A stretch of 64,000 nucleotides of DNA from Cellulosimicrobium sp. Marseille-Q4280 (GTDB lineage: Bacteria; Actinomycetota; Actinomycetes; Actinomycetales; Cellulomonadaceae), in the NCBI RefSeq assembly GCF_943181405.1, contig NZ_CALPBY010000008.1, forward strand, positions 62,001 through 126,000, written 5' to 3'. The position numbers were made by a program, and so were the translations under genes. Below the pieces are notes generated by a model. That model saw only the letters and a program-made list of their open reading frames with translations. It was not told the origin of the DNA and made no database searches. Within the stretch, counting starts at the first letter, position 1, and every line of letters starts with the position of its first letter. Below, piece after piece: positions 6,762 to 53,697 of this stretch.

Positions 6762-8438
6762 ATGCATCGCACGTCCACCGCACCGACACGAGGGCGCGGG
6801 CTCCGCGCACTGCTCGCCGCCGCGTCCGCGCTCGCCGTCGGACTCACAGCGGCGCTCCTCGCGGGGCCGGCCGCTGCCGACGCCGGGCCCGCCGTCGAGC
6901 TGCCCACTGGTGGCCTGTCCGTCACGGGCGAGACGTCCCCGATCCACGACCCCGCGCTCGTCGTCGCCGACGACGGCACGTGGTACGTGTACTCGACCGG
7001 CCTCGTGAACCGCGAGAAGGGCGGCACCATCCAGGTCTGGTCGTCCGGCGACGACGGCGTCACGTGGGAGTCCGAGGGCACGGTCTGGGACGAGATCCCG
7101 GCCTGGATCGACGAGCACTTCGCCGACGGCGCGCTCCCCGACAACCTCTGGGCGCCCGAGGTCTACGAGCACGACGGCACGTACTACCTCTACTACTCGG
7201 CGTCGCGCTTCGGCACGAACACGTCCCTCACGGCGCTCGCCACCAACACGACGCTCGACCCCGACGACCCGGACTACGAGTGGGTCGACCAGGGCCTCGT
7301 CATCGAGTCGCCTCAGGACATCGCGGGCGCCAAGACGTTCAACGCGATCGACGCGGGGATCGTCGAGGACGCCGACGGCACGCCGTACATGGCGATCGGC
7401 TCCCACTGGTACGGGATCTTCCTCGTCGAGATCGCGTGGCCCAGCGGCAAGCCCGTCGCCGGCGCGGTCGCCGACGCCGTGCACCTCGTCGACCGGTTCG
7501 CCCCAGGCAACCGCGTCGAGGCGCCGTTCATCACCGAGCACGACGGCTGGTACTACCTGCTCGTGTCGTTCGACGCATGCTGCCAGGGCGCCGACAGCAC
7601 CTACCACGTGGCCGTCGGGCGCTCGCGCTCCGTCACCGGCCCGTACCTCGACGCCGAGGGCCGCGACATGGTCGGCGGCGGCGGGACGACGCTGCTCGAC
7701 ACGCACGGCGCCGTCGTCGGCCCCGGCGGGCAGTCGGTGTTCGACGACGTGCTCGCGTTCCACTACTACGACGCGTCGAACGCGCAGTTCCCCTACCTCC
7801 CCACGCTCGGCCTGCAGCGGCTCGCGTGGGTGGACGGTTGGCCGGTCGTGGACGCCACGGTCGAGGTCCCGGCCGTGCTCTCCGGGCCGCAGGACGCGGA
7901 CGTCGCCCTGGGCGACGCCGCGACGTTCGCGGTCGACGTGTCCGGCACGCCGACCCCCGTCGTCACGTGGGAGACGTCGCGCGACGGTGGCTCGACCTGG
8001 GAGCAGGCCGCGCCGGGGCGCCGCGCGGTGGACGGCTCGGCGTCGCTCGAGCTGCCCGCGGTCGGGGCCGACGACGACGGCCTGCTCGCGCGCGCAATCG
8101 TGCAGAACGCGCACGGGAGCGTCGTGAGCCCGACGGCGTCGCTCGCCGTGACGGAGGCCGTGGCCCTCGGCGACGTCGTCGCGCAGCCGCGGTGCCTCGG
8201 CGGGTCGGCCTACCTCGCGGTGCGCGCCACCTCGGCCAGCACGGAGCCGGTGACGATCGCGCTGTCCACGCCGTACGGCTCGCGCACGGTGGTGGGCGTC
8301 GCCCCTGGGCGCTCCGCCTACCAGGCGTTCGCCGTGCGCTCGTCCGAGGTCGCGGAGGGCAGCGTCACCGTGACGGCGACGGCGGGGGAGCGAGCGGTCT
8401 CGCGCACGGTCGAGCACGCGGCACTGACCTGCCCCTGA
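6762..8438 (+). CDS. Secreted arabinan endo-1,5-alpha-L-arabinosidase-like GH43 with C-terminal module
   Basis: A 558-residue exported enzyme expected to cut internal alpha-1,5 links of arabinan. The signal peptide covers roughly residues 1-43 (Arg-rich start, Ala/Leu core, 'GPAAADA'). The GH43 propeller (about 55-370) shows base Asp63 ('IHDPALV'), Asp197 ('FNAIDAG') and acid Glu253 ('RVEAPF'), plus 'LWAPEVYEHDGTYYLYYSAS' typical of endo-arabinanases. An Ig-like domain follows (about 370-465), then the recurrent module (about 466-558) with its two cysteines ('RCLGGSAYLAVRAT' and the terminal 'LTCP'). ATG 6762 is preferred over an in-frame GTG at 6726, which would be inside the operator. Its catalytic domain resembles the membrane-anchored protein at 20574. 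Confidence 0.87.
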   Translation: MHRTSTAPTRGRGLRALLAAASALAVGLTAALLAGPAAADAGPAVELPTGGLSVTGETSPIHDPALVVADDGTWYVYSTGLVNREKGGTIQVWSSGDDGVTWESEGTVWDEIPAWIDEHFADGALPDNLWAPEVYEHDGTYYLYYSASRFGTNTSLTALATNTTLDPDDPDYEWVDQGLVIESPQDIAGAKTFNAIDAGIVEDADGTPYMAIGSHWYGIFLVEIAWPSGKPVAGAVADAVHLVDRFAPGNRVEAPFITEHDGWYYLLVSFDACCQGADSTYHVAVGRSRSVTGPYLDAEGRDMVGGGGTTLLDTHGAVVGPGGQSVFDDVLAFHYYDASNAQFPYLPTLGLQRLAWVDGWPVVDATVEVPAVLSGPQDADVALGDAATFAVDVSGTPTPVVTWETSRDGGSTWEQAAPGRRAVDGSASLELPAVGADDDGLLARAIVQNAHGSVVSPTASLAVTEAVALGDVVAQPRCLGGSAYLAVRATSASTEPVTIALSTPYGSRTVVGVAPGRSAYQAFAVRSSEVAEGSVTVTATAGERAVSRTVEHAALTCP

Positions 8439-8467
8439 CGCCCCGCGCGTCCGCGTCACCTGATGTG

Positions 8468-14072: not shown

Positions 14073-14074
14073 GC

Positions 14075-18973: not shown

Positions 18974-19065
18974 CCCAGCACCCGACCACGGCGGGCCGTC
19001 ACGACGGGCCGTCACGACCGACACCCGCGACCGACCGTCGCGACCGCACCGTCCCGGAGGACCCC

Positions 19066-30100: not shown

Positions 30101-31034
30101 CGCGCGCTCGATCATCGAGGGCGCGTACGCGAAGGACTGGTCGAGCTACACGCTCGAGCTCGACGCGCGCAAGACGTCCGGGTCGGAGGGCTTCCTCGTC
30201 GGCTTCGCCGCCGGCGGCCCGAACGACTACTACTGGTGGAACCTCGGCGGCTGGAACAACACGCGCCAGGCCCTCCAGCGGGCCGACGGCGGGAGCGCCA
30301 ACGAGGTGAAGGCGGTCGAGAACCACAGCATCGAGTCCGGCCAGCCGTACCACGTGAAGATCGTGGTCGAGGGCTCGACGATCGAGCTGTACCTCGACGG
30401 CGAGCTCCAGATGTCGTACGAGCAGCCGACCAGGAAGTCGCTCTACCAGGTCGTCACGCGGGACGACGACACGGGCGACGTGGTGGTCAAGGTCGTCAAC
30501 CCGACCGAGACCGCGGCGCGGACCCAGGTGCACGTGGACGGGCTGGAGGACGCGACCGGCATCGCCTCGGAAGCGACCGTCACCGAGATGGTGGGTGCGC
30601 CGTCGGACACCAACACCAAGGCCGACCCCGAGCTCCTGGTGCCGGTCGAGCGGACGATCACCGGCGTGGGCGAGGACTTCTCGTACGAGTTCCCCGCGCA
30701 CTCGATCACGTTCGTCCGGCTCCACGCGAGCGAGGCCGCGCCGGAGCTCGACCTCGACGTGACCGCGCAGGCGCGCTGCCTCGCCGGCAAGACCTACGTC
30801 GCGGTGCGGGCCACGAACGGGGAGGACGTCGCCGTGGACGTCACGCTCGCCACGCCGTTCGGCACCAAGGCGTTCGCGGACGTCGCGCCGGGCAAGAACG
30901 CGTACCAGTCGTTCGCGACGCGCGCGGTCTCCGTCCCCGCGGGTTCCGCGACCGTCACGGGCACGGCCGTGGTCGACGGCGAGGAGGTCACCTCGACCGT
31001 CGACGTCGCCTACGACGCGCTCGGCTGCGGCTGA
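27147..31034 (+). CDS. Secreted multidomain GH51 alpha-L-arabinofuranosidase
   Basis: A 1295-residue exported enzyme. Signal peptide about 1-42. A concanavalin-like N-terminal domain (about 48-245) and a beta-rich linker domain (about 248-378) precede GH51 (from about 381). The acid/base is Glu743 ('LGNEENTKTF') and the nucleophile Glu829 ('FLGEYASRG'). A CBM4/9-like jelly-roll is inserted early in GH51 (about 410-580), and a second concanavalin/DUF1080-like domain (about 917-1098) interrupts the C-terminal beta-domain. The recurrent Cys module (about 1200-1295) ends the protein. ATG 27147 has GAGGAGAGGAAGG upstream; a start at 27108 would leave no room after the operator. It heads the block of large secreted enzymes and is controlled by type A sites. 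Confidence 0.88.
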   Translation: MDHPEDPLSTRTRRWRRTVAVALAGGLVGTVALASSLPASAAEPDLPDGAWVDTFDGTALGADWTVVNPVPEALTVADGALTLRSQPGDTWQTNNTAKNVVVLDVPDGDFTVVTHVEAPVDRVYQGAGLIAWQDMDNYVRSGLTFVGDLSPSGRAIENDVESGGVFAADSFTDRPGSTGETLRMQRAGDTITTSYWDGTAWQPTGSVDVDFPTTQVGLYALAAQDGTSHTAVFDYVALTAAEGEDQVPDGAFTLAGPGDARYLVATDDGLALDDERPATTVALEATAVDGAPGTSPVTLAVGDRPVVVTGDPEPRLALGGAGTDGTALRITDAGGGKVWLRSAADPEQHAGVRAEDGALVLGPRDAATPLTLTPTSSAEHELTVDLAGERTEMSDELYGIFYEDINYAADGGLYAELVRNRSFEFNNQDNGSFTGLTAWAAANRGGATATTQVVNDAGRLNATNRNYLNLTTTAAGAGVRNAGYNTGLFVEEGESYDFSVWARSATAQTVTVRVEDEAGTTAYATGQVAVDGSNTWKKYDVTLAATGTTNAGRLALLSGAAGTLAVDQVSLFPQDTWVGPVNGQSVLRRDLAEKIEALDPQFLRFPGGCVTNVGTFRTYEESGFTDRRRTYQWKETIGPVEERATNWNFWGYNQSYGIGYLEYFLFAEDLGATPLPVVSVGANGCGSTIPEMTDPAQIQRWVQDTVDLIEFANGDVTTEWGAVRAELGHPEPFDLKYIGLGNEENTKTFEANFPAFRDAIAAEYPDIEIISNSGPDDTGARFDELWEFNREQGVDMVDEHYYNDPSWFLENDERYDSYDREGPQVFLGEYASRGNTFANALSEAAFMTGLERNSDVVRLASYAPLLANESYVQWSPDAIWFDNDESWGSVNYYVQQMFSANVGDQVVPSTHTGPPAEGATVDGGVFLSTWSTAAQYDNVRVTDNASGDVLFSDDFESGADQWEPQSGTWAAQDGAYVQSATNVTDARSIIEGAYAKDWSSYTLELDARKTSGSEGFLVGFAAGGPNDYYWWNLGGWNNTRQALQRADGGSANEVKAVENHSIESGQPYHVKIVVEGSTIELYLDGELQMSYEQPTRKSLYQVVTRDDDTGDVVVKVVNPTETAARTQVHVDGLEDATGIASEATVTEMVGAPSDTNTKADPELLVPVERTITGVGEDFSYEFPAHSITFVRLHASEAAPELDLDVTAQARCLAGKTYVAVRATNGEDVAVDVTLATPFGTKAFADVAPGKNAYQSFATRAVSVPAGSATVTGTAVVDGEEVTSTVDVAYDALGCG

Positions 31035-38726: not shown

Positions 38727-41147
38727 ATGGACACGCACCACCGCAGACGACGCCGCGTGCGCGGCGCACTCGCCGGGGCGGCACTCGTGACGCTGCTCTC
38801 GGCGTCGTTCGCCGCGCTGCCCTCGCAGGCCGCGGACGAGGAGCTGGTCGTGAACGGCGGCTTCGAGGACGGCACCACCGGATGGTTCGTCAACGACGGG
38901 AACGCGACCGACGAGGCCGTGCTGTCGACGACGGACGGCGCGTTCTCGGGCGCCGCCGCCGCGCTCACGACCGAGCGCGCGACGACGGGCTCGGGCCCGA
39001 TGCAGGACCTCAGCGGGAAGGTCCAGGCCGGTCAGACCTACGAGCTGACCGCCAGGATCCGGTACGACGCCGCGGACGCGCCGCCGACCAAGCAGTTCTT
39101 CGCCACCATGCACTACGGCGGCGGGACGTACACGAACCTCGTGAGCGTCACCGCGACCAAGGGCCAGTGGGCGACGTTCGACGGCACGTTCACGATCCCG
39201 GCGAGCCAGGGAGTCGGCACCGCGCGGCTGTTCTTCGAGACGCCGTGGACGTCCGACCCGGCCGCCGATCCGGCCACCCACCTCATGGACTTCGTCCTCG
39301 ACGACGTGTCGGTCGTCGGGGCGCCGCCGCCCAAGCCGCCGTCGAGGACGATCGAGGTCGTCGGCAAGCTCCCCGGCGAGCACAACCCGCTGATCTCCCA
39401 CAAGTTCGGGGCCGACGGGTTCGGGTTCGTCGAGGACGGGCGCGTGTACATGTACCTGACGAACGACACGCAGGGGTACGCCCCCGACCCGGTGACCGGT
39501 GTCTCCCCGCAGATCAACTACGGGAACATCAACCAGATCACCGTCATCTCGTCCGAGGACCTCGTGAACTGGACGGACCACGGGGAGATCCAGGTCGCGG
39601 GGCCGAACGGCGTCGCGCCGTTCACGAACAACTCGTGGGCGCCCGGCATGGCGAAGAAGGTCGTCGACGGGGTCGAGAAGTACTTCCTCTACTACGCCAA
39701 CGGCGGCGGCTCCTCGAACGTCATCACGGGTGAGTCCCCGGTGGGGCCCTGGACGAGCGAGCGCGACAGCACCCTCATCGACGGCCGGACCCCGGGCGCC
39801 GAGGCGGTGGCGTGGAAGTTCGACCCGGCCCCGCTCGTCACCGACGACGGCGACGCGTACCTCTACTTCGGTGGCGGTCCCGCGTCGACGTCGATGCCGG
39901 CGGCGGAGCGCTTCAACAACCCGAAGAACATCCGGGTCATCGAGCTGGGCGACGACATGGTCTCGACGCAGGGCACGGCGGCCGTCGTGGACGCGCCCGT
40001 CGCGTTCGAGGCGGCGCAGGTGTTCGAGCGCGAGGGCACGTACTACCTGTCGTACTCCTCCCACTTCGGCGGCAACGACTTCGGCGGCAACCAGACACCG
40101 CTGCCGGGCTACCCGGGGGGCGGCCAGATCGGCTACATGATGTCCGACGACCCGATGTCGTTCCCCAAGGAGACGTACGCGGGCGTCCTGTTCCCCAACC
40201 AGTCGCAGTTCTTCGGCGCGGGCACCGGCGGGAACAACCACCAGTCCGTGTTCGAGCTCGACGGGAAGTACTACTTCACGTACCACGCGCCGACGCTCAA
40301 CAAGCGCATCAACGGGAGCACGACGCAGGGGTACCGCAGCCCGCACATCCAGGAGCTGGGGTTCAACGCCGACGGCACGATCCAGCAGGTGGTCGGGACG
40401 TACGCGGGCCCGGAGCAGGTCAAGGACCTCGACCCGTTCCAGGTCCTCGAGGCCGAGACGTTCGCGTGGCAGCAGGGCCTCGCGACCGCGAAGGTCGACG
40501 GCGGGTCCGCGCAGTTCGGCGAGGACGCCCCGAACCTCGTCGTGCGCGACGTGGACGACGGCGACTGGTCGGCGCTCTCGGCGGTCGACTTCGGCGACGG
40601 TGCCGCGAGCGTCACCGCGCGCGTGAAGCCGCTCGTCGAGGGTGGTCAGGTCGAGGTGCGCCTCGACGACCGTACCGGTCCCGTCGTGGGGACGATCGCC
40701 CTCGACGCGCAGGTGGGCGAGTGGTCCGAGGTCACGGCCGAGCTCGCCGGCGTCAGCGGGGTGCACGACGTGTACCTCACCTTCGCCGGCCCGGAGGGCC
40801 AGGACCTGGCGGAGGTCGACACGTGGGAGTTCTCCCCGGCAGAGGTCGCGCCGGAGCTCGCGCTCGACGTGTCCGCGCAGGCGCGTTGCCTCGCCGGCAA
40901 GACCTACGTCGCGGTGCGGGCCACGAACGGGGAGGACGTCGCCGTGGACGTCACGCTCGCCACGCCGTTCGGCACGAAGACGGTCGCGGACGTCGCGCCG
41001 GGCAAGAACGCGTACCAGTCGTTCGCGACGCGCGCGGTCTCCGCCCCGGCCGGCACGGCGACCGTCACGGGCACGGCGATGCTCGACGGCGACGAGGTCA
41101 CGTCGAGCGTCGACGTCGCGTACGACCCGGCCACCTGCGGCGGCTGA
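38727..41147 (+). CDS. Secreted GH43 enzyme with N-terminal CBM4/9-like and CBM6-like domains
   Basis: An 806-residue exported enzyme. Signal peptide 1-36 ('LPSQAADEE'). A CBM4/9-like domain (38-198, 'NGGFEDGTTGW' to 'LDDVSVVG') is related to the internal CBM of the preceding gene. The GH43 domain (about 209-568) contains 'EHNPLISHKFGADGFGFVEDGRVYMYLT', 'NNSWAPGMAKK' and 'EAAQVFEREGTYYLSYS'. A CBM6-like domain (570-704, 'EAETFAWQQG') and the recurrent module follow. The last 290 bases are nearly identical and gap-free with the 3' end of the GH51 gene at 27147. ATG 38727 has GAGGAGG upstream. Likely arabinofuranosidase or arabinoxylan-type activity; the specificity is not certain. Confidence 0.84.
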   Translation: MDTHHRRRRRVRGALAGAALVTLLSASFAALPSQAADEELVVNGGFEDGTTGWFVNDGNATDEAVLSTTDGAFSGAAAALTTERATTGSGPMQDLSGKVQAGQTYELTARIRYDAADAPPTKQFFATMHYGGGTYTNLVSVTATKGQWATFDGTFTIPASQGVGTARLFFETPWTSDPAADPATHLMDFVLDDVSVVGAPPPKPPSRTIEVVGKLPGEHNPLISHKFGADGFGFVEDGRVYMYLTNDTQGYAPDPVTGVSPQINYGNINQITVISSEDLVNWTDHGEIQVAGPNGVAPFTNNSWAPGMAKKVVDGVEKYFLYYANGGGSSNVITGESPVGPWTSERDSTLIDGRTPGAEAVAWKFDPAPLVTDDGDAYLYFGGGPASTSMPAAERFNNPKNIRVIELGDDMVSTQGTAAVVDAPVAFEAAQVFEREGTYYLSYSSHFGGNDFGGNQTPLPGYPGGGQIGYMMSDDPMSFPKETYAGVLFPNQSQFFGAGTGGNNHQSVFELDGKYYFTYHAPTLNKRINGSTTQGYRSPHIQELGFNADGTIQQVVGTYAGPEQVKDLDPFQVLEAETFAWQQGLATAKVDGGSAQFGEDAPNLVVRDVDDGDWSALSAVDFGDGAASVTARVKPLVEGGQVEVRLDDRTGPVVGTIALDAQVGEWSEVTAELAGVSGVHDVYLTFAGPEGQDLAEVDTWEFSPAEVAPELALDVSAQARCLAGKTYVAVRATNGEDVAVDVTLATPFGTKTVADVAPGKNAYQSFATRAVSAPAGTATVTGTAMLDGDEVTSSVDVAYDPATCGG

Positions 41148-41477: not shown

Positions 41478-44400
41478 ATGACCTCACGCCACGTACGAGA
41501 CAGCTCTCGAACGACATCGAGAGGGACCGCCGGCACGTCCGACACGCCGCCGGCCGGCCACCGCTCCGCGACCGCCCCGCACCCGCGCACGTCCGGCACG
41601 CGTCCGTCCGACACGCGTGCCGGACGGCGTGCGCTCGCCGCGCTCGTCGGGCTCGCCCTGGTGGGCCCGCTCGCGCCTGCCGCGGCGGCCGCAGCCCCCG
41701 CCGCTCCTGGGCCCACGGCCCTCGAGCCGACGTCGGCGACGGCGCTCGCCGCGCCGGCCACCGAGGGCCTCCAGCTGTGGCTCCCGCTCGACGAGACCGA
41801 GGGCACCGTCGCGCACGACGCGTCCGGCAACGGCCTCGACGCGACCCTCGCGGGGCAGGGCGGTGGCTGGAGCGAGGGCCAGGGCCTGGTGTTCGGCGGC
41901 TCGAACCACGTCGACCTGCCCGACGACCTGCTCGCCGGGATGGACGCCGTGACCGTCAGCGCCGACGTCTGGATCGACACGTCCCTCAGCGGCAACTACT
42001 TCTTCTACACCCTGGGCAACACCGCCGTCGGGACGCCGCAGTCCGGGAACGGCTACCTCTTCTCGACGGGCAACGCGAACTACCGTGCGACGATCTCCGA
42101 TCTCGCGTGGGGTCGTGAGCAGAACACCGCGAAGGCCCCGGCCGGCGCGCTCGCGCGCGGTGTCTGGAAGACGGTCACCTACACGCTCGGTGGCGGCACC
42201 GCGCGCCTCTACGAGGACGGCACACAGGTCGGGCAGAACACCGCGGTGACGATCACCCCGGGTGCGATCGGCGGCGGCGTGACCACCGCGAACTTCCTGG
42301 GGAAGTCCGCGTACGCCGCGGACAACCTCTTCAAGGGCCGCATGAAGGACTTCCGGCTCTACGACCGCGCGCTCACCGCGCAGGAGGTCGCCGACATCTC
42401 GGCCGACGCCGCGCAGGACGCGGTCACCGCCGACGCCGCGGCCCTCGACCTCGGCGACACGAGCGCCGTCGTCACCGACCTCGACCTCCCGGCGCAGGGC
42501 GTCGGCGGCACGGCGGTCACGTGGGCCACGTCCGACGACGGCGTCGTCGGAGCGGACGGCACCGTGACCCGCCCGGCCGCGGGCGAGGAGCCCGCGACCG
42601 CCACGCTCACCGCGACCGTCGCGCTGCGCGGGGCGACCGAGTCCCGCACGTTCGACGTCACGGTCCTCCCCGGCGACGGCGACCAGGCGAAGGCGGACGC
42701 CGCGGCGGCCGCGCTCGAGGTCCCGAACCTCGACGACGTGCGTGGCAACCTCACCCTTCCCACCACCGGGCTGCACGGTGCGAGCGTGAGCTGGGCGTCG
42801 TCGTCGGGCGCGATCACGCCCACCGGCGAGGTCACCCGGCCCGCGCACGGCGAGGACGCGGAGACGGTCACGCTCACCGCGACCGCCACGGTCGGCGCGG
42901 CCACCGCGACGCGCGAGCTCGGCGCGACCGTCCCGCCGCTGCCGGAGCAGGAGGACCTCGAGGGCTACCTGTTCTCCTACTTCGTCGGCGAGGGCACGGC
43001 CACCGGCGAGCAGGTCTACTTCGGCCTGAGCCAGGGCAACGACGCGCTGAACTACCAGAACCTCAACGACAACCAGCCGGTCCTGACCTCCGAGCTGGGG
43101 GAGAAGGGCCTGCGCGACCCGTTCATCATCCGCTCGCCCGAGGGCGACAAGTTCTACCAGATCGCCACCGACCTGCGGATCTACGACGGCAACGGGTGGG
43201 ACGCCGCGCAGCGGCAGGGCTCGAAGTCGATCATGGTGTGGGAGTCCACGGACCTCGTGACCTGGACCGACCAGCGCCTCGTGCAGGTCTCGCCGGACAC
43301 CGCGGGCAACACGTGGGCGCCCGAGGCGTACTACGACGAGAGCCTCGGCGCGTACGTGGTGTTCTGGGCGTCGAAGCTCTACGCCGAGGACGACCCGGGC
43401 CACACGGGGAACAGCTACAACCGCATGATGTACGCCACGACGCGCGACTTCGTGACGTTCTCCGAGGCGAAGGTCTGGGTCGACCCGGGCTACTCCGTCA
43501 TCGACTCGACGGTCGCGCAGGACGACGACGGCACGTTCTACCGCTTCACGAAGGACGAGCGGAACAACACCTCGACGACGCCGTGCTCGAAGTTCATCCT
43601 CGCGGAGAAGTCCGACGAGCTGCTGTCGACCGACTGGGACTACGTCACCGACTGCATCGGCAAGGCGAGCTCGGCCGGCCCGGGCATCAACCAGGGCGAG
43701 GGCCCGACGATCTTCCGGTCGAACACCGAGGACAAGTGGTACCTCTTCATCGACGAGTTCGGCGGCCGCGGCTACGTGCCGTTCGAGTCGACGTCGCTCG
43801 ACGCCACCGAGTGGACCATGTCGACCGACTACGAGATGCCGTCGCGCCCGCGCCACGGCACGGTGCTCCCCGTGACGCAGGCCGAGTACGACCGCCTGCT
43901 GCGCACGTACCAGCCCGACGCGTTCGTCGAGTCCGTCGAGGACGTCGCGGTGACGGTCCAGACGGGCACGGCGCCCGTGCTGCCGGCGCAGGTCACCGCA
44001 CGCTTCGCCGACGGGACCTCGGGTCCGGCGGACGTCACGTGGGACGCGGTCGACCCGGCGTCGTACGCCCAGGAGGGCGAGTTCGTCGTCGAGGGCAGCC
44101 TGGGCGGCGGGGTGAGCGTGCGGGCCCGCGCGGTCGTCACCGTGACCGACGACGTCGTGCCGGTCGAGGGCCTGAGCGTCACCCCGGCGTCGGTCCAGGT
44201 GGGCGTCGCGGGGACGCGGCAGCTCACCGCGACCGTCACACCGGCCAACGCGAGCGCCCGCGCGATCACCTGGGCGTCCGACGACGAGTCCGTCGCCACG
44301 GTCTCGGCCGAGGGCGTCGTGACCGGCGTCGGCGAGGGCCACGCGATGGTCACCGCGACCACCGCGGACGGGTCGCGCACCGCCTACGTCGCGGTCGAGG

Positions 44401-46523
44401 TGACCTCCGACGTGCCGGGTCTCGTGGTGCGGTACGCGCTCGACGAGACGAGCGGCACGACGGCGGCCAACTCGGCGCCGGACGCGACGATCGGCGCGGC
44501 GACGCTCACGGGCGGCGCAGCCTTCAGCGGGACCGGCGAGGGCGTGACCCTGGACGGGACGAACGACTACGTCGACCTGCCCGACAACCTGCTCGCCGGC
44601 CTCACGGACGTGACGGTGAGCCTCGACGTGAAAATCGCCACGGACCAGGCCACGCCGTACTTCATCTACGGCCTCGGCAACACGAGCGGGACGGCCGGCA
44701 ACGGCTACCTGTTCACGACCGGCAACGCCTACCGGACGTCGATCGCGACGGGCAACTGGACCACGGAGCAGACGGTGAGCAAGAACGCCGACCTGCAGCG
44801 CGGCGTCTGGAAGCACCTGACGTACACGCTCGAGGGCACGACCGCCGTGCTCTACGAGGACGGCGTCGAGGTCGGGCGCCAGACCGGCGTGACGATCGAC
44901 CCGAAGGACATCGGCAACGGGTCCACGCTCGCGAACTACATCGGCCGCTCGGTCTACCCGGGCGACCGCTACCTCAAGGGCTCGGTGCGCGACTTCCGGG
45001 TCTACGACCGCGCGCTGACCGCCGACGAGGTGTTCCAGCTCGGCGCCGACCACACGGCCGTCACGGGCGCCGAGCTCGACGAGCTGAAGGTCCCGGCGAT
45101 CGTCGACGGCGCGAGCTCCACGGTCACGCTCCCGGTCGAGCCGGGGACGGACCTCACGGCGCTCTCGCCCGTGCTCGCCGTCTCGCCCCGGGCCACGGTC
45201 TCGCCGTCGAACGGGTCCGCGCAGGACTTCTCGGAGCCCGTCGAGTACACGGTGACCGGGCCGGACGGGTCGTCGCGAACGTGGACGGTCCAGGCGAAGG
45301 AGATGAACAGCCCGGTGCTGCCGGGGCGGTACGCCGACCCGAACATCGCGCAGTTCGGCGACACGTTCTACCTCTACGCGACGACGGACGGCACGCCCGG
45401 CTGGGGCGGCAAGGACTTCTACGTCTGGAAGTCCTCCGACCTCGTCGAGTGGGAGCGCTCGGAGGAGCCGTTCCTCACGCTCGACGGCGCGAACGGCAAC
45501 GTCCCGTGGGCGACGGGCAACGCGTGGGCGCCGACGATCATCGAGCGGGACGGGAAGTACTACTTCTACTTCTCGGGCCACAACCCGACGTACGACCGCA
45601 AGACGATCGGCGTCGCGGTGGCCGACAGCCCCGAGGGACCGTTCACCGCGGAGCCCACGGCGATGATCACCAACGGCGAGGCCGTCACTTCCGGCCAGGC
45701 CATCGACCCGGCCGCGTTCCACGACCCGCAGACCGGCAAGTACTGGCTCCTGTGGGGCAACGGCGGCCCGTCGAACGGCCCGGTCATGGCCGAGCTGTCC
45801 GACGACATGACGTCGATCGAGCAGGACACGCTGCGGCGCATCCCGGGGCTGACGGACTTCCGCGAGGGCCTGTTCGTCAACTTCCGCGACGGGATCTACC
45901 ACCTCACGTACTCGATCGACGACACCGGGTCGCCGAACTACCGCGTCGGGTACGCGACCGCGACGAGCTTGGACGGCCCGTGGACCTACCGCGGCGTCAT
46001 CCTCGAGAAGGACGCGTCGCAGGGGATCCTCGGGACCGGGCACAGCTCGATCCTCAACGTCGAGGGCACGGACGACTGGTACATCGCGTACCACCGCTTC
46101 GCGATCCCCGGCGGCAACGGCACCAACCGCGAGACGACGATCGACCGTCTCACGTTCGGCGAGGACGGCCTCATCCAGAAGGTCACGCCCACGCTCGAGA
46201 GCGTGGACCCGGTCGACGTCGCACCGCAGCCCGAGGTCGAGCTGACCGTCGAGGCCACCCCCCGGTGCCTCGCGGGCAAGGCCTACCTCGCGGTCCGCGC
46301 GACGAACGCGGGCGACGTTCCCGCCGACGTCACGCTCGCGACGCCGTTCGGCCAGAAGGTGGTCGCCGACGTCGCGCCCGGCAAGGCGGCGTACCAGTCG
46401 TTCGCGGTGCGGGCGACGTCCGTGGCCGCGGGGACGGCGACGGTCACGGGCACCGCGGTCCTCGACGGCGAACCCGTCACCACGGAGCACGAGGTCGCGT
46501 ACGACGCCGCTACGTGCGGCTGA
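41478..46523 (+). CDS. Giant secreted enzyme with two GH43 catalytic domains and two LamG domains
   Basis: A 1681-residue exported protein. A long charged N-terminus precedes a signal peptide ending near residue 75. Order by eye: LamG-1 (97-300), two atypical Ig-like domains (315-395, 405-490), GH43-1 (493-814, 'KGLRDPFIIRSP', 'TWAPEAYYDES'), Big_4-like (818-891), Big_2-like (896-976), LamG-2 (980-1193), an E-set linker (1195-1275), GH43-2 (1278-1580, 'RYADPNIAQFGDTFYLYATT', 'NAWAPTIIERDGKYYFYFSG', 'REGLFVNFRDGIYHL') and the recurrent Cys module. The two catalytic domains are only distantly related and probably attack different linkages of one polymer. ATG 41478 has GAGGAG upstream. Type A operators control it. 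Confidence 0.85.
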   Translation: MTSRHVRDSSRTTSRGTAGTSDTPPAGHRSATAPHPRTSGTRPSDTRAGRRALAALVGLALVGPLAPAAAAAAPAAPGPTALEPTSATALAAPATEGLQLWLPLDETEGTVAHDASGNGLDATLAGQGGGWSEGQGLVFGGSNHVDLPDDLLAGMDAVTVSADVWIDTSLSGNYFFYTLGNTAVGTPQSGNGYLFSTGNANYRATISDLAWGREQNTAKAPAGALARGVWKTVTYTLGGGTARLYEDGTQVGQNTAVTITPGAIGGGVTTANFLGKSAYAADNLFKGRMKDFRLYDRALTAQEVADISADAAQDAVTADAAALDLGDTSAVVTDLDLPAQGVGGTAVTWATSDDGVVGADGTVTRPAAGEEPATATLTATVALRGATESRTFDVTVLPGDGDQAKADAAAAALEVPNLDDVRGNLTLPTTGLHGASVSWASSSGAITPTGEVTRPAHGEDAETVTLTATATVGAATATRELGATVPPLPEQEDLEGYLFSYFVGEGTATGEQVYFGLSQGNDALNYQNLNDNQPVLTSELGEKGLRDPFIIRSPEGDKFYQIATDLRIYDGNGWDAAQRQGSKSIMVWESTDLVTWTDQRLVQVSPDTAGNTWAPEAYYDESLGAYVVFWASKLYAEDDPGHTGNSYNRMMYATTRDFVTFSEAKVWVDPGYSVIDSTVAQDDDGTFYRFTKDERNNTSTTPCSKFILAEKSDELLSTDWDYVTDCIGKASSAGPGINQGEGPTIFRSNTEDKWYLFIDEFGGRGYVPFESTSLDATEWTMSTDYEMPSRPRHGTVLPVTQAEYDRLLRTYQPDAFVESVEDVAVTVQTGTAPVLPAQVTARFADGTSGPADVTWDAVDPASYAQEGEFVVEGSLGGGVSVRARAVVTVTDDVVPVEGLSVTPASVQVGVAGTRQLTATVTPANASARAITWASDDESVATVSAEGVVTGVGEGHAMVTATTADGSRTAYVAVEVTSDVPGLVVRYALDETSGTTAANSAPDATIGAATLTGGAAFSGTGEGVTLDGTNDYVDLPDNLLAGLTDVTVSLDVKIATDQATPYFIYGLGNTSGTAGNGYLFTTGNAYRTSIATGNWTTEQTVSKNADLQRGVWKHLTYTLEGTTAVLYEDGVEVGRQTGVTIDPKDIGNGSTLANYIGRSVYPGDRYLKGSVRDFRVYDRALTADEVFQLGADHTAVTGAELDELKVPAIVDGASSTVTLPVEPGTDLTALSPVLAVSPRATVSPSNGSAQDFSEPVEYTVTGPDGSSRTWTVQAKEMNSPVLPGRYADPNIAQFGDTFYLYATTDGTPGWGGKDFYVWKSSDLVEWERSEEPFLTLDGANGNVPWATGNAWAPTIIERDGKYYFYFSGHNPTYDRKTIGVAVADSPEGPFTAEPTAMITNGEAVTSGQAIDPAAFHDPQTGKYWLLWGNGGPSNGPVMAELSDDMTSIEQDTLRRIPGLTDFREGLFVNFRDGIYHLTYSIDDTGSPNYRVGYATATSLDGPWTYRGVILEKDASQGILGTGHSSILNVEGTDDWYIAYHRFAIPGGNGTNRETTIDRLTFGEDGLIQKVTPTLESVDPVDVAPQPEVELTVEATPRCLAGKAYLAVRATNAGDVPADVTLATPFGQKVVADVAPGKAAYQSFAVRATSVAAGTATVTGTAVLDGEPVTTEHEVAYDAATCG

Positions 46524-46640: not shown

Positions 46641-49262
46641 ATGACAGGACTCAGGACGCGCGGCCCGCGTCGCCGGGCGGCGGGCATCGCCGTCGGGCTC
46701 GTCGGCGCGCTCACCGCGACGCTGCTCGGGACGGCCGGGGCCACGGCGGCCCCCGTCGCCGCCCCGGTCGGCACCGCCGCGGCCAGCGGGGCCGGCAGCG
46801 CTGACGACGCCGGGCTCGTCGCCTGGTACCCGCTCGACGCGGCCAGCACCACCGGCGGCACGACGGCGAACCTCGCCGCGGGCTCGACGTTCGGCCCGGC
46901 CACGGTGCACGGCGCGACGGCGACCCCCGACGGTCTCGCGCTCGACGGCACGGACGACTACGTCGACCTGCCCGACCACCTGCTCGCCGGCCTCACCGAC
47001 GCGACGGTGAGCCTCGACGTGCTGGTGGACGCCACGCAGGCGACGCCGTACTTCATCTACGGGCTCGGGAACTCGAGCGGGACGGCCGGCAACGGCTACC
47101 TCTTCACGACCGGCAACGCGTACCGGACGTCGATCGCGACGGGCAGCTGGACCACCGAGCAGACCGTCACCAAGGGGTCCAACCTGACGCGCGGCGTCTG
47201 GAAGACCTTGACGTACACGCTCACCGGCACGACCGCGACGCTCTACGAGGACGGCGTCCAGGTCAAGCAGGCGACGAACGTCACGACCGACCCCGGCCAG
47301 ATCGGCGGCGGGCAGACGACGGCGAACTACGTCGGTCGCTCGCTGTACTCCGGCGACCGGTACCTCAAGGGGCAGGTCCGCGACTTCCGGATCTACGACC
47401 GGGCCGTCACGGCGGCCGAGGCGGCCGAGCTCGCGCTCGAGACGTCGGCCGCCGCGGCCGACGCCGACCTCGCAGCGCTCGACCTCGGCGACACGAGCGC
47501 CGTCACCGCCGACCTCGCGCTCCCGACGGCTGCCGCCCAGGGCTCGCTCGTCACGTGGTCGTCGTCCGACCCCGCGGTCGTCTCGGCGACCGGCAAGGTC
47601 ACACGTCCCGCAGCCGGCGAGGACGACGCGACGGTCACCCTGACCGCCGCCGTGACGCGCGGCGCCGTCGCGCGGACCGCGACGTTCGAGGTCACGGTCC
47701 TCGCGCAGCTCCTGCCCGCCGAGGCGGCGCAGTGGGACGCCGAGCACGTGACGGTCCCGCACCTCGACGACGTGCGCGGCAACCTCACGCTCCCCGTGAC
47801 CGGCGCGAACGGCTCGTCGCTCACGTGGGTCACCTCCGACCCCGCCACGATCTCGCCCACGGGCGACGTGACGCGCCCCGCGCACGGCGAGGAGGCCGCC
47901 GTCGTGCAGCTCACCGTCACGGCGTCGAAGGACGGCGCGACGGCCACGCACACCTACGACGCGACGGTCCGGCCGCTGCCGGCCGCCGCGGACTACGAGG
48001 GCTACTTCTTCCCGTACTTCGAGGGCGAGAGCACGCCCGACGGCGAGTCGGTCTACTTCAGCGTGAGCGACGGCAACGACCCGCTCGACTGGGTCGAGCT
48101 CAACGACGCCGAGCCCGTCCTCACGTCGGAGCTCGGCGAGAAGGGTCTGCGCGACCCGTTCATCATCCGCTCGCCCGAGGGCGACCGGTTCTTCCTGCTC
48201 GCCACCGACCTGCGCATCTACGGCGGGAACAACTTCGGCAACGCCCAGGAGCGCGGCTCGCGCGCCCTCATGATCTGGGAGTCGACGGACCTCGTGAGCT
48301 GGTCCGAGCAGCGCTCGGTGACGGTCTCGAGCGAGTACGCGGGCAACACGTGGGCGCCCGAGGCGTTCTACGACGCGCAGCGCGGCGAGTACATCGTCTA
48401 CTGGGCCTCGGCGCTGTACCCGACGACCGACACGTCCAACCGGCGCATCGCCGACTCGTACCAGCGCATGATGTACGCCACGACGCGCGACTTCGTGACG
48501 TTCAGCGAGCCGCAGGTGTGGATCGACGAGAAGCGCGGCAACGGCCTCGGCATGATCGACTCCTCGATCGTCGAGCACGAGGGCACGTACTACCGGTTCA
48601 CCAAGGACGAGGCGTACATGATCCCGCGCCTCGAGAAGTCGACGGACCTGCGCTCGACCGACTGGGACCTCGTCGCCGAGAGGATCGGGTACGGCCAGCC
48701 GAACCCCTGGGGCGGCACGCTCACGGCGGGCGAGGGCCCGACGGTGTTCAAGTCGAACACCGAGGAGAAGTGGTACCTCTTCGTCGACCAGCCGAGCTAC
48801 CACGGCGGCCAGGGCTACCTGCCGCTCGAGTCCACCGACCTCGACTCGGGCGTGTGGACGTCCGTCGACGCGGACCTGCCGAGCAGCCCGCGCCACGGGA
48901 CCGTCCTGCCGATCACGGCCGCCGAGCAGGCCGCGCTCCTCGCCGCGTACGGCGACGAGCCGCCCGCGCCCGAGCTCGACCTCGCGGTCGACGTCTCGCC
49001 GCGGTGCCTCGCGGGGAAGGCGTACGTCGCCGTGCGCGCGACGAACGGCGAGGACGTGCCCGCCGACGTGACCCTCACGACGCCGTACGGAACGAAGGCG
49101 TTCCGCGACGTCGCGGCCGGCAAGGCGGCGTACCAGTCGTTCGCGGTCCGCGCGACGAGCGTCCCGGACGGGACCGTCACCGTCACCGGTGTCGCGACCC
49201 TCGACGGCAAGGAGGTGACGACCACGCTGGAGGCGCCGGTCGAAGCACTCGACTGCGCCTGA
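46641..49262 (+). CDS. Secreted GH43 enzyme with LamG and two Ig-like domains
   Basis: An 873-residue exported protein: signal peptide about 1-38, LamG (59-260), two atypical Ig-like domains (274-355, 365-445), GH43 (452-772; 'KGLRDPFIIRSP', 'LATDLRIYGG', 'TWAPEAFYDAQ', 'GEGPTVFKSN') and the recurrent Cys module. The layout equals the first 800 residues of the gene before it, so a tandem duplication is likely. Its LamG, however, matches LamG-2 of that protein much better than LamG-1 ('YFIYGLGN(T/S)SGTAGNGYLF'). ATG 46641 follows GAGGAGAAGG. Its GH43 is the same type as the cytosolic enzyme coupled to araA. Confidence 0.86.
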   Translation: MTGLRTRGPRRRAAGIAVGLVGALTATLLGTAGATAAPVAAPVGTAAASGAGSADDAGLVAWYPLDAASTTGGTTANLAAGSTFGPATVHGATATPDGLALDGTDDYVDLPDHLLAGLTDATVSLDVLVDATQATPYFIYGLGNSSGTAGNGYLFTTGNAYRTSIATGSWTTEQTVTKGSNLTRGVWKTLTYTLTGTTATLYEDGVQVKQATNVTTDPGQIGGGQTTANYVGRSLYSGDRYLKGQVRDFRIYDRAVTAAEAAELALETSAAAADADLAALDLGDTSAVTADLALPTAAAQGSLVTWSSSDPAVVSATGKVTRPAAGEDDATVTLTAAVTRGAVARTATFEVTVLAQLLPAEAAQWDAEHVTVPHLDDVRGNLTLPVTGANGSSLTWVTSDPATISPTGDVTRPAHGEEAAVVQLTVTASKDGATATHTYDATVRPLPAAADYEGYFFPYFEGESTPDGESVYFSVSDGNDPLDWVELNDAEPVLTSELGEKGLRDPFIIRSPEGDRFFLLATDLRIYGGNNFGNAQERGSRALMIWESTDLVSWSEQRSVTVSSEYAGNTWAPEAFYDAQRGEYIVYWASALYPTTDTSNRRIADSYQRMMYATTRDFVTFSEPQVWIDEKRGNGLGMIDSSIVEHEGTYYRFTKDEAYMIPRLEKSTDLRSTDWDLVAERIGYGQPNPWGGTLTAGEGPTVFKSNTEEKWYLFVDQPSYHGGQGYLPLESTDLDSGVWTSVDADLPSSPRHGTVLPITAAEQAALLAAYGDEPPAPELDLAVDVSPRCLAGKAYVAVRATNGEDVPADVTLTTPYGTKAFRDVAAGKAAYQSFAVRATSVPDGTVTVTGVATLDGKEVTTTLEAPVEALDCA

Positions 49263-49283
49263 TCCTCGCGAGGTCGAGCCGTC

Positions 49284-49435: not shown

Positions 49436-51685
49436 ATGCCTGTGCACGACTCGACCTATTCGCGCCGGTCCGTCCTGCGGTTCGGCGCGCTGGCCGCCGG
49501 CGCGACCGCCGGTGCGGTCGCCCTCGCCGGGGGCGCCGCCGCCGCACCACCGGCCGTCCCCGCCACGTTCGTCCCGACGAGGCCACCCGTGAGCCGCGGC
49601 TTCCTGCGGTCCCTCGACCGGTCGATCACGCTCGACGGCTGGGCCGCCGAGCCGTTCTCGATGTCCGACGTGACGCTCGCGCCGAGCGTCGCGACCCGGT
49701 CCCAGGACCAGATGCTGCACCTCGCCCGCGTGTACCCGGTCGACCGCGTCCTCGCGGTCTTCCGGCGCAACGCGGGGCTCGACACGAAGGGCGCGAGCGC
49801 GCCCGGCGGCTGGGAGGGCTTCGGCCACGCCAACGAGCAGGCGTGGGGACCCGACGACTACCCGGGCCGCGCGAACACCCAGACCGCCAACCTCCTGCGC
49901 GGCCACTACGGCGGGCACTTCCTGTCCATGGTGTCGCTCGCGTTCGCGAGCACGGGGGAGACCGTGTTCCAGGACAAGGTGGACCAGATCGTCGCCGGCC
50001 TCGGCGAGGTCCAGACGGCGCTCGCGGCCATGGGGCGGTTCAGCCACCCGGGCTTCCTCGCCGCCTACGGCGAGTGGCAGTTCAGCCAGCTCGAGAAGTA
50101 CGCGCCGTACGGCGAGATCTGGGCGCCGTACTACACGTGCCACAAGATCATGGCGGGGCTCCTGGAGGCCTACCGCCTCGCGGGATCCGACCAGGCGCTC
50201 GAGATCGCGACCTCGATGGCGGACTGGGTGCACAGCCGGCTCTCCGTGCTGCCGCAGGCCCAGCTCGACCGGATGTGGGGCATCTACATCGCGGGCGAGT
50301 ACGGCGGCATGAACGAGGTGCTCGCCGACATCGCGTCGATCACGGGCGACGACACGTACGTCGCCACGGCCCGCCTGTTCGACCTCAACACGCTCGTCGA
50401 CGCGAGCGCGGCGGGCACCGACACGCTCAACGGCAAGCACGCGAACCAGCACATCCCGCAGTTCCCCGGCTACCTCAAGGTCCACGACCTCACGGGGGAG
50501 CAGCGGTACCTCGACGCCGTCGAGGGGTTCTGGGGCATGGTCGTCCCCGGGCGCACCTATGCGCACGGCGGCCACGGCGAGGGGGAGCTCTTCGGTCCGC
50601 CGAACACGGTCGCGGGCGACATCGGCGCGCGCAACGCCGAGACGTGCGGCACGTACAACATGCTCAAGCTGAGCCGCCTGCTGTTCTTCCACACGCTCGA
50701 CCCGAAGTACATGGAGTACTACGAGCGGGGCCTGCTCAACCAGGTCGTCGGCTCGAAGAAGAACACGCAGTCGGACACGAACCCGGACGTCACGTACATG
50801 TACGGCGTCAACCCCGGCACGCGCCGCGAGTACGGGAACACGGGGACGTGCTGCGGCGGGACCGGGCTCGAGAACCACGTGAAGTACCGGGACTCGATCT
50901 ACTTCCGGACCGTCGACGGCAGCGCGCTGTACGTCAACCTCTACCTCGCCTCGACGCTGACCTGGGAGGAGAAGGGCTTCGAGGTCGTCCAGGAGACGCA
51001 GTACCCGAAGGTCGGGTCGAGCAGGCTCACGGTGAACGGGTCGGGGCAGCTCGACCTCCGTCTGCGCGTGCCCGGCTGGGTGCGCAAGGGCTTCACGGTC
51101 CGGGTCAACGGCGCGGTGCAGGACATCGACGCCGTCCCCGGGACCTCCGTGAGCGTCGCGCGCTCGTGGTCGCCCGGCGACGTCGTCGAGATCGACATGC
51201 CGCTGAGCATCCGCGCGGTGCCGACGATCGACAACCCCGCGATCCAGAGCATCGAGAACGGGCCGACCGTGCTCCTCGCGCGCAGCGCCTCGCGGGAGTA
51301 CCTCAAGCTGTCGCTCTACGCCCACATGGGTCTGGACGGCACGCTCGAGGGCGCGTTCACGGACCTCGGCGACGGGTACTTCCGGCTCGGGAGCACCACG
51401 TTCGAGCCCGCGTGGTCGGGTGACGACACCCAGTACCACATGTACGTCGAGCGGTCCGAGCCGCGCGTCGTCTTCGCGGGCCTGGACAGCGGCGTGACGA
51501 ACGCCCGCCGCCAGAACGGCACGTCGTTCCTCGACGTCGTGTGGGGCGACGGCGGCTTCGCGGACCGTGCGGCCTTCCTCGCGAAGGTGCAGCGCACGGT
51601 CGAGCAGTTCACCGCGGACGGCCTCCTGAGCCGCCGCGACGGGCAGAGGGTCCTGGTCACGGCGGGGAAGGCGAGGCTGGCATGA
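49436..51685 (+). CDS. Tat-exported GH127-type beta-L-arabinofuranosidase
   Basis: A 749-residue enzyme with a twin-arginine signal ('SRRSVLRFGALAAG' then an Ala/Gly core to about residue 40), suggesting export in folded, metal-loaded form. The GH127 catalytic domain fills most of the rest. The zinc/nucleophile set is Glu402 and Cys404 ('ETCGTYNM') and Cys472/Cys473 ('TCCGGTGLEN'). Unlike the GH127 at 31341 it has no accessory domain and no Cys module; the next gene, overlapping by ATGA, supplies such domains as a separate protein. ATG 49436 has AAGGAG upstream. The substrate is likely beta-linked L-arabinofuranose, as for the family. Confidence 0.85.
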   Translation: MPVHDSTYSRRSVLRFGALAAGATAGAVALAGGAAAAPPAVPATFVPTRPPVSRGFLRSLDRSITLDGWAAEPFSMSDVTLAPSVATRSQDQMLHLARVYPVDRVLAVFRRNAGLDTKGASAPGGWEGFGHANEQAWGPDDYPGRANTQTANLLRGHYGGHFLSMVSLAFASTGETVFQDKVDQIVAGLGEVQTALAAMGRFSHPGFLAAYGEWQFSQLEKYAPYGEIWAPYYTCHKIMAGLLEAYRLAGSDQALEIATSMADWVHSRLSVLPQAQLDRMWGIYIAGEYGGMNEVLADIASITGDDTYVATARLFDLNTLVDASAAGTDTLNGKHANQHIPQFPGYLKVHDLTGEQRYLDAVEGFWGMVVPGRTYAHGGHGEGELFGPPNTVAGDIGARNAETCGTYNMLKLSRLLFFHTLDPKYMEYYERGLLNQVVGSKKNTQSDTNPDVTYMYGVNPGTRREYGNTGTCCGGTGLENHVKYRDSIYFRTVDGSALYVNLYLASTLTWEEKGFEVVQETQYPKVGSSRLTVNGSGQLDLRLRVPGWVRKGFTVRVNGAVQDIDAVPGTSVSVARSWSPGDVVEIDMPLSIRAVPTIDNPAIQSIENGPTVLLARSASREYLKLSLYAHMGLDGTLEGAFTDLGDGYFRLGSTTFEPAWSGDDTQYHMYVERSEPRVVFAGLDSGVTNARRQNGTSFLDVVWGDGGFADRAAFLAKVQRTVEQFTADGLLSRRDGQRVLVTAGKARLA

Positions 51686-53697
51686 GCGCGCGAGGAAGCA
51701 TCACGTCGCAGGGGAGCGGCGGCACCGTGCTCGTCCCGCTGGACGGTCAGGACGGGAGCGGCCACCCTGCGCGGGTCCGACGCCGCGTGGTCGCCACCGT
51801 CGCGGCGCTGGCCCTCGCGGTCACCGGCGCAGGCGTCGGCGCGTGGGCGGCGACCGGGGAGAGCGCCGACGGCCTCGTCGCCGCGGCAGAGGCCGAGCCG
51901 TCGAACGTCGCGCTCCTCGGGACCCCCGAGGCGAGCTACACGGCGTCGTGGAACAAGGTCGAGGCCGTGAACGACGGCTCCGGCGTGAGCACCGGCGGGG
52001 CGCACGACGCGACGTGGGCGACGTGGAGCGGGGACCGCCCCGCGACGCAGTGGCTCGAGTACTCGTGGCCGGCGCCGGTCACCGTGGACCGCTCGGTCAT
52101 CCGGTTCTGGTCCGACGGCACCGACGCCAACGGCGACAACGTGCGCGTCCCGGCGTCCTGGACGATCCAGTACTGGGACGAGGACGCGGGTGCGTTCGTC
52201 GACCTCCCGAACCCCAGCGGGTTCCCGACGGCGCGCCTGGAGACCAACGCGACGACGTTCGACGCGGTGACGACGACGCGCGTCCGGGCGACGTTCCAGG
52301 CGCTGCGCGGCACGACCGCGACGAGCTACTCCGCCGTCGGAGTCTCGGAGTGGGAGCTGTGGGGCACGGGCGGCGTCGAGGAGCCGGACCCCGTCGACCC
52401 GAACGGACCGATCGACCACTCGCCGGTGCACATCCCGACCGACGTCGGCGTGCTGCCCGATCTCCCTGCGGAGATCGACGCGGTCTTCACCGACGGTCGC
52501 GTGGAGACGGTCGAGGTCGACTGGGAGGACGTCACGGCCGAGGACGTGGCCGCGCCCGGCGCGTTCGACGTGACGGGCACGTCGCCCGAGCTCGTCGAGC
52601 CCGTGAGCGGGACCGTGCACGTGCGCGACGGCGACCCGGGCGAGATCGCGGCGGTCGACTACGTGAGCGTCGTGACGCTCGCGGGGACGGCGCCGGTCCT
52701 CCCGGCGACGGTGACCGCCGAGTACGAGGACGCGTCGAAGGACAGCCGCGTGCCGGTGACGTGGGAGGCCGTCGACCCGGCGGACTACGCCGAGCCGGGC
52801 GGCCTGTTCTTCGTGGCCGGGGACGTCGACGGGACGGACCTCGTGGCCGAGGCCACGGTGTTCGTGGTCGCGCCCGACACGGGCGAGGACGTCACCCCTC
52901 CGACGGTGAACGTCTCGGCCCAGCCGGGCCCCGCGACGTCGGGCTGGTACGTGGGCACCCCGACGGTCACGGTCGTCGCGACGGACAACCGCGACACGGC
53001 ACCCGTCGTGGAGGTCGCGGTGGACGGCGGCGAGTGGGCCGCCTACGACGGCCCGTTCACGCTCGACGACGGTCAGCACACCGTCGCCGCCCGGGCCACG
53101 GACGCGGCGGGCAACGTGGGCGAGGGCTCGCGCGACCTGCGCGTGGACACCGTCGCGCCGGTCACGACCGCGACGGTGCGCGACCTCGGCACGAGCGTCG
53201 AGATCACGCTCACGGCGGTCGACGCGGGTTCGGGCGTGGACAAGATCCAGTGGGAGGGCCCGGGCACGTTCTGGGGCACCTACTCGGAGCCGTTCACGCG
53301 CGCGCTCACCGAGGAGGAGCAGGTCATCGAGTACGCGGCGACCGACGCGGCGGGCAACGAGGAGGCGCGCGGGCAGGTCGTCCTGCCGGCGCTGGGCGCG
53401 GAACCGTCGCTCGACCTCGTCGTCGAGGCGTCGCCGCGGTGCCTCGCGGGCACGGCCTACGTGGCCGTGCGGGCCACCAACGGCGAGGACGTGCCCGTCG
53501 ACGTGACCCTGTCGAGCCCGTACGGCCAGAAGGCGTTCGCCGACGTCGCGGCGGGACGGGCGGCCTACCAGTCGTTCGCGGTGCGGGCGGCGTCCGCCCC
53601 CGCAGGCATCGTCACGGTGACGGGCAGCGCGACGGTCGACGGCGAGGAGGTGACCTCGACCTCGACGGCCGCGTTCGACGCGCTCGACTGCGGCTGA
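51682..53697 (+). CDS. Secreted non-catalytic carbohydrate-binding partner protein with C-terminal module
   Basis: A 671-residue protein with no recognisable catalytic domain. An N-terminal hydrophobic segment (about 39-65) after 'RVRRR' acts as signal peptide or anchor. Then an F5/8-type-C (CBM32-like) discoidin domain (72-229), two Big_4-like domains (243-320, 322-396), an Ig/OmpL47-like pair (403-570, 'YDGPFTLDDGQHTVAARATD') and the recurrent Cys module (573-671). These are the domains that usually trail a GH127 in longer polypeptides. ATG 51682 overlaps the GH127 stop, so the two are coupled. Probably tethers or targets that enzyme (inference). Confidence 0.75.
   Translation: MSARGSITSQGSGGTVLVPLDGQDGSGHPARVRRRVVATVAALALAVTGAGVGAWAATGESADGLVAAAEAEPSNVALLGTPEASYTASWNKVEAVNDGSGVSTGGAHDATWATWSGDRPATQWLEYSWPAPVTVDRSVIRFWSDGTDANGDNVRVPASWTIQYWDEDAGAFVDLPNPSGFPTARLETNATTFDAVTTTRVRATFQALRGTTATSYSAVGVSEWELWGTGGVEEPDPVDPNGPIDHSPVHIPTDVGVLPDLPAEIDAVFTDGRVETVEVDWEDVTAEDVAAPGAFDVTGTSPELVEPVSGTVHVRDGDPGEIAAVDYVSVVTLAGTAPVLPATVTAEYEDASKDSRVPVTWEAVDPADYAEPGGLFFVAGDVDGTDLVAEATVFVVAPDTGEDVTPPTVNVSAQPGPATSGWYVGTPTVTVVATDNRDTAPVVEVAVDGGEWAAYDGPFTLDDGQHTVAARATDAAGNVGEGSRDLRVDTVAPVTTATVRDLGTSVEITLTAVDAGSGVDKIQWEGPGTFWGTYSEPFTRALTEEEQVIEYAATDAAGNEEARGQVVLPALGAEPSLDLVVEASPRCLAGTAYVAVRATNGEDVPVDVTLSSPYGQKAFADVAAGRAAYQSFAVRAASAPAGIVTVTGSATVDGEEVTSTSTAAFDALDCG

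Follow-up and report, generated by a model that had tools for sequence, protein, structure and literature searches.

Why do eight proteins with different catalytic and binding domains end in the same short sequence? We asked this of a 64,000-nucleotide stretch of Cellulosimicrobium sp. Marseille-Q4280 (contig NZ_CALPBY010000008.1, positions 62,001 to 126,000; hereafter the window), in which a module of about 95 residues forms the C-terminal end of eight proteins. A profile built from these copies matched the 4.86-Mb genome at 49 places (E 0.001), so the module is not a chance resemblance, and the same terminal domain is shared by dozens of unrelated, mostly exported proteins. By sequence, this abundant C-terminal domain is absent from Pfam, NCBIfam and the Protein Data Bank (PDB). 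From sequence comparisons we consider it moderately probable that, in this group of Actinobacteria, the module is a general device at the C-terminus by which exported proteins are retained non-covalently. The copies in the window are as follows, with coordinates that exclude the stop codons.

8154..8435, + strand: module copy 1, two cysteines
30738..31031, + strand: module copy 2, two cysteines
35235..35537, + strand: module copy 3, two cysteines
38299..38571, + strand: module copy 4, both cysteines absent
40848..41144, + strand: module copy 5, two cysteines
46227..46520, + strand: module copy 6, two cysteines
48966..49259, + strand: module copy 7, two cysteines
53401..53694, + strand: module copy 8, two cysteines

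All eight positions proposed by a first-pass annotation of this DNA were recovered to within a few bases, and the shared core motifs that it listed were correct. The copies were 47-87% identical to the first aligned copy (reference 30738-31031). The description of the module as a two-cysteine domain held for seven of the eight copies, in which the last cysteine lies 0-2 residues from the end; copy 4, in the GH43 protein at 35686-38574, has neither, reading RAMAG at the first cysteine site and ending in AYG.

Distribution and hosts of the module in the genome

The 49 matches fell in 48 open reading frames (ORFs), and the module was terminal in 46 of them. These ORFs include 44 strong, intact terminal copies, together with an asparaginase with one divergent terminal copy (L048), a 97-residue ORF that is nearly nothing but module (L046), a half copy whose reading frame is lost midway (L045, contig C8:46885) and an ORF with divergent internal copies (L047). 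Another copy with its reading frame lost midway through the module was seen at L279. A hydropathy scan and inspection by eye showed an export signal in 41 of the 44 intact carriers, which bears out the earlier claim that the module sits on exported proteins. Among the three carriers without a visible signal, L042 shows none, and the sequences of L049 and L033 are truncated at the end of a stretch or contig.

Pfam scans covered 47 of the 48 ORFs (all but L047; L049 and L033 in part). The glycosidase families found were GH2, GH10, GH13, GH30, GH43, GH51, GH59, GH76, GH92, GH97 and GH127, and the further hosts included polysaccharide deacetylase, ThuA, GSDH, 3-keto-disaccharide hydrolase and xylose-isomerase-like barrels. 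The module was also carried by an alpha/beta hydrolase, peptidases S8 and M28, purple acid phosphatase, metallophosphatase, PhoD, 5'-nucleotidase and asparaginase, and some carriers had no enzyme domain at all. In total the host range exceeded 20 enzyme families, with mannosidases, a pullulanase and a xylanase among the hosts. The module had been put forward as a mark of arabinan-degrading proteins. We rejected this, because hosts throughout the genome belong to many enzyme families of unrelated function, peptidases and phosphatases included, and this excludes a role tied to arabinan. Targeting to one substrate, another of the roles first suggested, is likewise not supported, since the hosts are functionally unrelated. 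The remaining part of that suggestion stood: the module is non-catalytic and occurs on exported proteins, which fits retention or sorting.

The ORF left out of the scan, L047 (757-6000; contig C1, ~284 kb), begins by eye like an ECF sigma factor and continues with a Gly/Ala-rich stretch and a Pro-rich linker. Its distal part holds extracellular-looking repeats, three of them distantly module-like, with a CBM5/12-like stretch near the end. The protein is possibly a glycan-sensing sigma factor that spans the membrane.

Paired cysteines and fold

We counted the two cysteines in three overlapping alignments. Both, neither or one were present in 40, 4 and 0 of the 44 intact genome copies, in 66, 3 and 0 of a 69-copy alignment, and in 31, 3 and 0 of a 34-copy alignment. 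No copy was therefore discordant, in the sense of having kept one cysteine and lost the other, and none of these alignments showed a further cysteine inside the module. The corresponding counts among 88 distinct copies from relatives' loci were 84, 4 and 0. The half copy L045 (one cysteine), the repeats of L047 (0, 0 and 2), L046 and L048 (2 each) were excluded from these counts. Every aligned intact copy has either both cysteines or neither, so the two probably form a pair. The same pattern disfavours a free C-terminal cysteine used for covalent attachment.

Cysteine-free copies also occur in other species and fall in three places of a poorly resolved 80-copy tree, which is compatible with a single origin. 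One such copy terminates the PhoD carrier, which has a Tat-type signal (SRRVFLG); this fits a disulfide without proving it, because a protein that folds before export would not acquire the bond in the cytoplasm. The fold is probably Ig-like, as suggested by a strand-like pattern and by weak matches of the 44- and 34-copy profiles to the designed Ig domains 8bl3 and 8bl6 (E 0.0016-0.05).

Spread among relatives and movement between hosts

All 17 genomes of the genus carried the module, each with at least 27 copies. It was found in 72 of 150 genomes of the family and, at E 1e-5, in 52 of 396 genomes of the order; in the phylum it appeared in 6 of 396 genomes, all six of the same order, a count that gives no share for genomes outside it. 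Copy number varied within genera, from 0 to 19 in one (g24) and from 1 to at least 12 in another (g45). The module was terminal in all 88 distinct copies from the best-matching 75 of 254 relatives' loci. Five loci (L071, L088, L104, L110 and L115; QAPD01) belong to records that bear the name Sphaerisporangium cinnabarinum ATCC 31213, with copies at most 83% identical to those of the window. This label, which would place them outside the order if right, is suspected to be wrong.

Modules move between unrelated catalytic domains, as judged from DNA identity: copy 2 (GH51 carrier) and copy 5 (GH43 carrier) are 91.5% identical, and copy 3 (GH127 carrier) and copy 6 (two-GH43 carrier) are 87.3% identical. 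Across the genome, modules less than 50 kb apart were slightly more alike (median identity 50 vs 47%), and outside contig C8 they were not more alike (median 47%, 17 pairs).

Domains at the module's site in homologues

We sought homologues of four carriers in other genomes, namely the GH127 protein, the 5'-nucleotidase, a GH43 protein and the ThuA/GSDH protein L062. The best matches were used, at most 30 per carrier search, and C-termini were classed by regular expressions. The 93 homologues from outside the genus included 15 ending in the module, 9 in SLH domains, 7 in LPXTG-like tails, 3 in CBM5/12, 3 in Ig repeats, 4 in FG-GAP-like tails, 8 in a short two-cysteine tail and 7 in another two-cysteine repeat. 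Four loci that run off the fetched flank (L321, L326, L327 and L334) were counted in their respective tail classes. By eye, L216, L231, L257 and L271 appear to have Ig-like or similar repeats and L239 the short two-cysteine tail, all five having been scripted as other or none. For some of the GH127 homologues identity is low (33-41%), and these may be paralogues. Pfam confirmed 3/3 SLH, 2/2 CBM5/12 and 1/1 Big_3_5 among ten chosen tails; the FG-GAP-like tail of L250 matched no Pfam family, and the label FG-GAP-like is our own.

Because wall anchors occupy the module's site in some of these homologues, we infer surface retention, and this substitution is the best evidence for it.

Two further kinds of tail were seen. 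The 5'-nucleotidase homologues of family f6 (L236, L237, L239, L243, L247, L248, L252, L255 and L256) end in a different short two-cysteine tail, perhaps another undescribed C-terminal device. ThuA/GSDH homologues L310-L315 and L328 (genera g21, g14, g24 and g68) end in another two-cysteine repeat, which showed no similarity to the module by profile.

A retention domain and its alternatives

In the explanation that we favour, the module would be a small Ig-like beta-sandwich in which a disulfide formed after export may join the first strand (RC..G) to the last (..C at the end). Once exported, it would bind a common extracellular partner non-covalently, for example a glycopolymer of the wall, a different surface glycan or a scaffold. 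In this way varied hydrolases could stay close to one another on the cell surface or in particles that are shed.

Several observations weigh against this explanation. Wall anchors (SLH and LPXTG-like) stand at the module's site in 16 of the 93 homologues, a minority, and 28 of the 93 were other or none, with 9 more running off the fetched flank. The LPXTG-like class is defined by its motif. Three such tails were run in Pfam: one gave Gram_pos_anchor below the cut-off (E 0.0033), one an unrelated match to a DG-rich stretch, and one nothing. Two of the seven (L321 and L326) are cut by the flank, and in L334 further sequence follows the SLH domains. CBM5/12 and Ig repeats at the same site would equally suit substrate binding or spacing. 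Among module-rich genomes 1 of 16 had SLH domains, against 6 of 20 of the others, a difference that is not significant (Fisher 0.10); mutual exclusion of SLH and module between genomes was accordingly set aside, and sortase, present in 36/36 genomes, was uninformative as a discriminator. Outside the genus, L196 (1620-2201) holds a well-conserved internal copy followed by CBM5/12. No partner gene for the module was found. The published extracellular complex considered below came from cell-free supernatant (PMC4562250).

A dockerin-like assembly domain that binds a protein scaffold or itself, and so builds a particle, is the alternative that survives best, though we consider it unlikely. The 2015 account of Cellulosimicrobium cellulans F16 (PMC4562250) describes an extracellular 'hemicellulosome' of 17.9 MDa with at least 26 subunits, mostly hemicellulases, with peptidases and laccases also among them; it reports no cohesin or dockerin and leaves assembly unexplained. 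It gives the key subunit the domain order ThuA, GSDH, PKD, CBM6, PKD, with the full-length form, ~200 kDa on gels, in the particle, and free or protease-released forms of 118.5 and 118.3 kDa that are shorter by ~500 C-terminal residues (PMC4562250). Our carrier L062 has this published domain order, followed by ConA-like domains and, at the end, the module. If signal cleavage is assumed, mature L062 has a mass of 174.2 kDa, and a 118.3-kDa fragment of it would be 526 residues short. An L062 orthologue was present in 16 of 17 genomes of the genus, its own included; 15 end in an intact module, and the sixteenth, from an 83%-complete genome, has a frame-broken copy. The other two ThuA/GSDH carriers, L060 and L065, also bear the module. 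By likeness to L062 in the published domain order, we infer that the F16 key subunit carries the module, which would then lie within the missing ~500 residues.

Against assembly through the module, the lost residues would also contain two ConA-like domains, and the F16 key subunit ran at ~200 kDa on gels (PMC4562250). Laccases are named there among the F16 subunits, yet none of the 47 carriers scanned is a laccase. A scaffold was not found, and the module is unlike the genome's one cohesin protein by profile.

A bolder proposal goes further and is unlikely. In it the module would be the missing docking domain of a cohesin-free actinobacterial 'hemicellulosome', a particle born at the surface in which a terminal domain clamped by a disulfide gathers dozens of hydrolases, peptidases and phosphatases; related genera would serve the same set of enzymes with SLH or sortase anchors. 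Were the module to act as we favour, it would show by what means dozens of unrelated exoenzymes are kept together in a genus noted for its yeast-lytic and hemicellulose enzymes, and the question of particle assembly without cohesin or dockerin, raised in 2015 for F16 (PMC4562250), could be tested through a single domain. A C-terminal region left blank by Pfam and NCBIfam would also gain an annotation, and enzyme display a small tag that is portable.

It is improbable that the module is a new carbohydrate-binding module (CBM) that directs enzymes to their substrate through a broad target, be it plant polysaccharide, chitin or the fungal wall. The majority of identified hosts are carbohydrate-active, and CBM5/12 takes the module's site in 3 of the 93 homologues and follows the module in L196. 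However, peptidases, phosphatases, the 5'-nucleotidase and PhoD carry it too, and several carriers have ordinary CBMs internally, the module being nearly always terminal and named CBMs internal.

We give somewhat less credence to a passive C-terminal cap, a disulfide-closed domain that would shield multidomain exoenzymes from unfolding and exoproteases without binding anything. Its terminal position and the last cysteine at 0-2 residues from the end in seven window copies suit a cap, whereas four genomic copies and copies in other species have no cysteines, and a cap would suit most secretomes, yet the module is patchily distributed within one order. It is very improbable that the module is a signal for export or sorting, recognised by machinery of its own and perhaps cleaved off, as the C-terminal domain of type IX secretion is: many terminal copies do stand on unrelated exported proteins, but these have ordinary Sec-like or Tat-like signals, the copies inspected by eye show no membrane segment or sortase motif, no machinery was identified, and the host group has a Gram-positive wall.

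Carriers and module-free neighbours in the window

Pfam gave the following domain order for the eight carriers. The exported GH127 protein without the module is listed at its place.

6762..8438, + strand: carrier 1, signal-like N-terminus, GH43, I-set Ig, C-terminal module
27147..31034 (possible start 27108), + strand: carrier 2, signal-like N-terminus, DUF1349/ConA-like, CBM4_9, GH51, C-terminal module
31341..35540 (possible start 31323), + strand: carrier 3, signal-like N-terminus, LamG, aBig_2, GH127, DUF6805, cadherin-like, C-terminal module
35686..38574, + strand: carrier 4, signal-like N-terminus, GH43, CBM4_9, GH43_C2, C-terminal module
38727..41147, + strand: carrier 5, signal-like N-terminus, CBM4_9, GH43, CBM6, C-terminal module
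41478..46523 (possible start 41445), + strand: carrier 6, signal-like N-terminus, LamG, aBig_2, two GH43, Big_4, Big_2, C-terminal module
46641..49262, + strand: carrier 7, signal-like N-terminus, LamG, aBig_2, GH43 (below the Pfam cut-off), C-terminal module
49436..51685, + strand: GH127, exported, Tat-type signal SRRSVLRFGALAAG, without the module, C-terminus KARLA
51682..53697, + strand: carrier 8, signal-like N-terminus, Big domains, weak F5/8-like match, C-terminal module

The Pfam scan found no catalytic domain in carrier 8. Its start overlaps the stop codon of the Tat-type GH127 gene (49436-51685) in an ATGA, and this coupled partner of the enzyme carries the module, as the first-pass annotation had noted. 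The genome profile search found no module in the GH51 protein at 8574-10124 (- strand), the GH43 protein at 12645-14828 (- strand) or the GH51 protein at 18349-20574, all three judged cytosolic by eye, nor in the GH43 protein at 19299-21644, which has an N-terminal hydrophobic stretch. The absence earlier claimed for cytosolic enzymes, the membrane-anchored GH43 and the Tat-type GH127 thus held for each of them.

Comparison with known families and systems

The first-pass annotation had not recognised the module as a named CBM, and beyond the designed Ig domains nothing significant was found in Pfam, NCBIfam or PDB sequences. For the eight window copies, Pfam gave no family above the gathering score (five families, one copy each, E 0.03-0.22, among them DUF4232, PF14016, at E 0.06) and NCBIfam none above the cut-off (one match, E 0.092). 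With the eight full proteins, no Pfam family covered the module except DUF3869 in one protein (E 0.015). Natural PDB chains gave best E values of 0.19-0.7 with profiles of 8, 44 and 34 copies, which are not significant. The CcMan5 structures 2xsg and 4aq0 match residues 99-878 of carrier L043 (1754 residues), ending before the module. We did not find such a domain described in the literature, as judged by titles and abstract openings.

Dockerins and cohesins offer one likeness, a common small domain across many unrelated enzymes, and a particle of such a kind is described for the genus (PMC4562250). No dockerin match was found by Pfam in the 47 carriers scanned. The genome has one cohesin match (E 1.9e-13), in a lone cohesin protein with a signal peptide and a LASTG sortase-like tail (L308:1273-2157; contig C2, ~585 kb), and relatedness of the module to this protein was rejected for lack of similarity by profile. 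By eye, the adjoining downstream ORF appears to encode a secreted amidase with dockerin-like repeats. The two are perhaps a cohesin/dockerin pair, in a genus whose strain F16 reportedly has none.

The C-terminal domains of type IX secretion are terminal, Ig-like and numerous per genome, and they belong to bacteria with an outer membrane. The module shares the terminal position and the high number per genome.

LPXTG sortase signals (PF00746) correspond in position, since each of the four carriers has homologues with the motif at the C-terminal site; the module copies inspected by eye have no LPXTG motif, membrane segment or basic tail. SLH domains (PF00395) attach proteins to the wall non-covalently, and three of the four carriers have homologues with SLH at the C-terminal site. 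They differ in being repeats of ~44 residues with a sequence unlike the module, and none was found by Pfam (PF00395) in the 47 carriers scanned or in the genome. By sequence neither an SLH domain, nor a sortase signal, nor a dockerin, the module would work like them.

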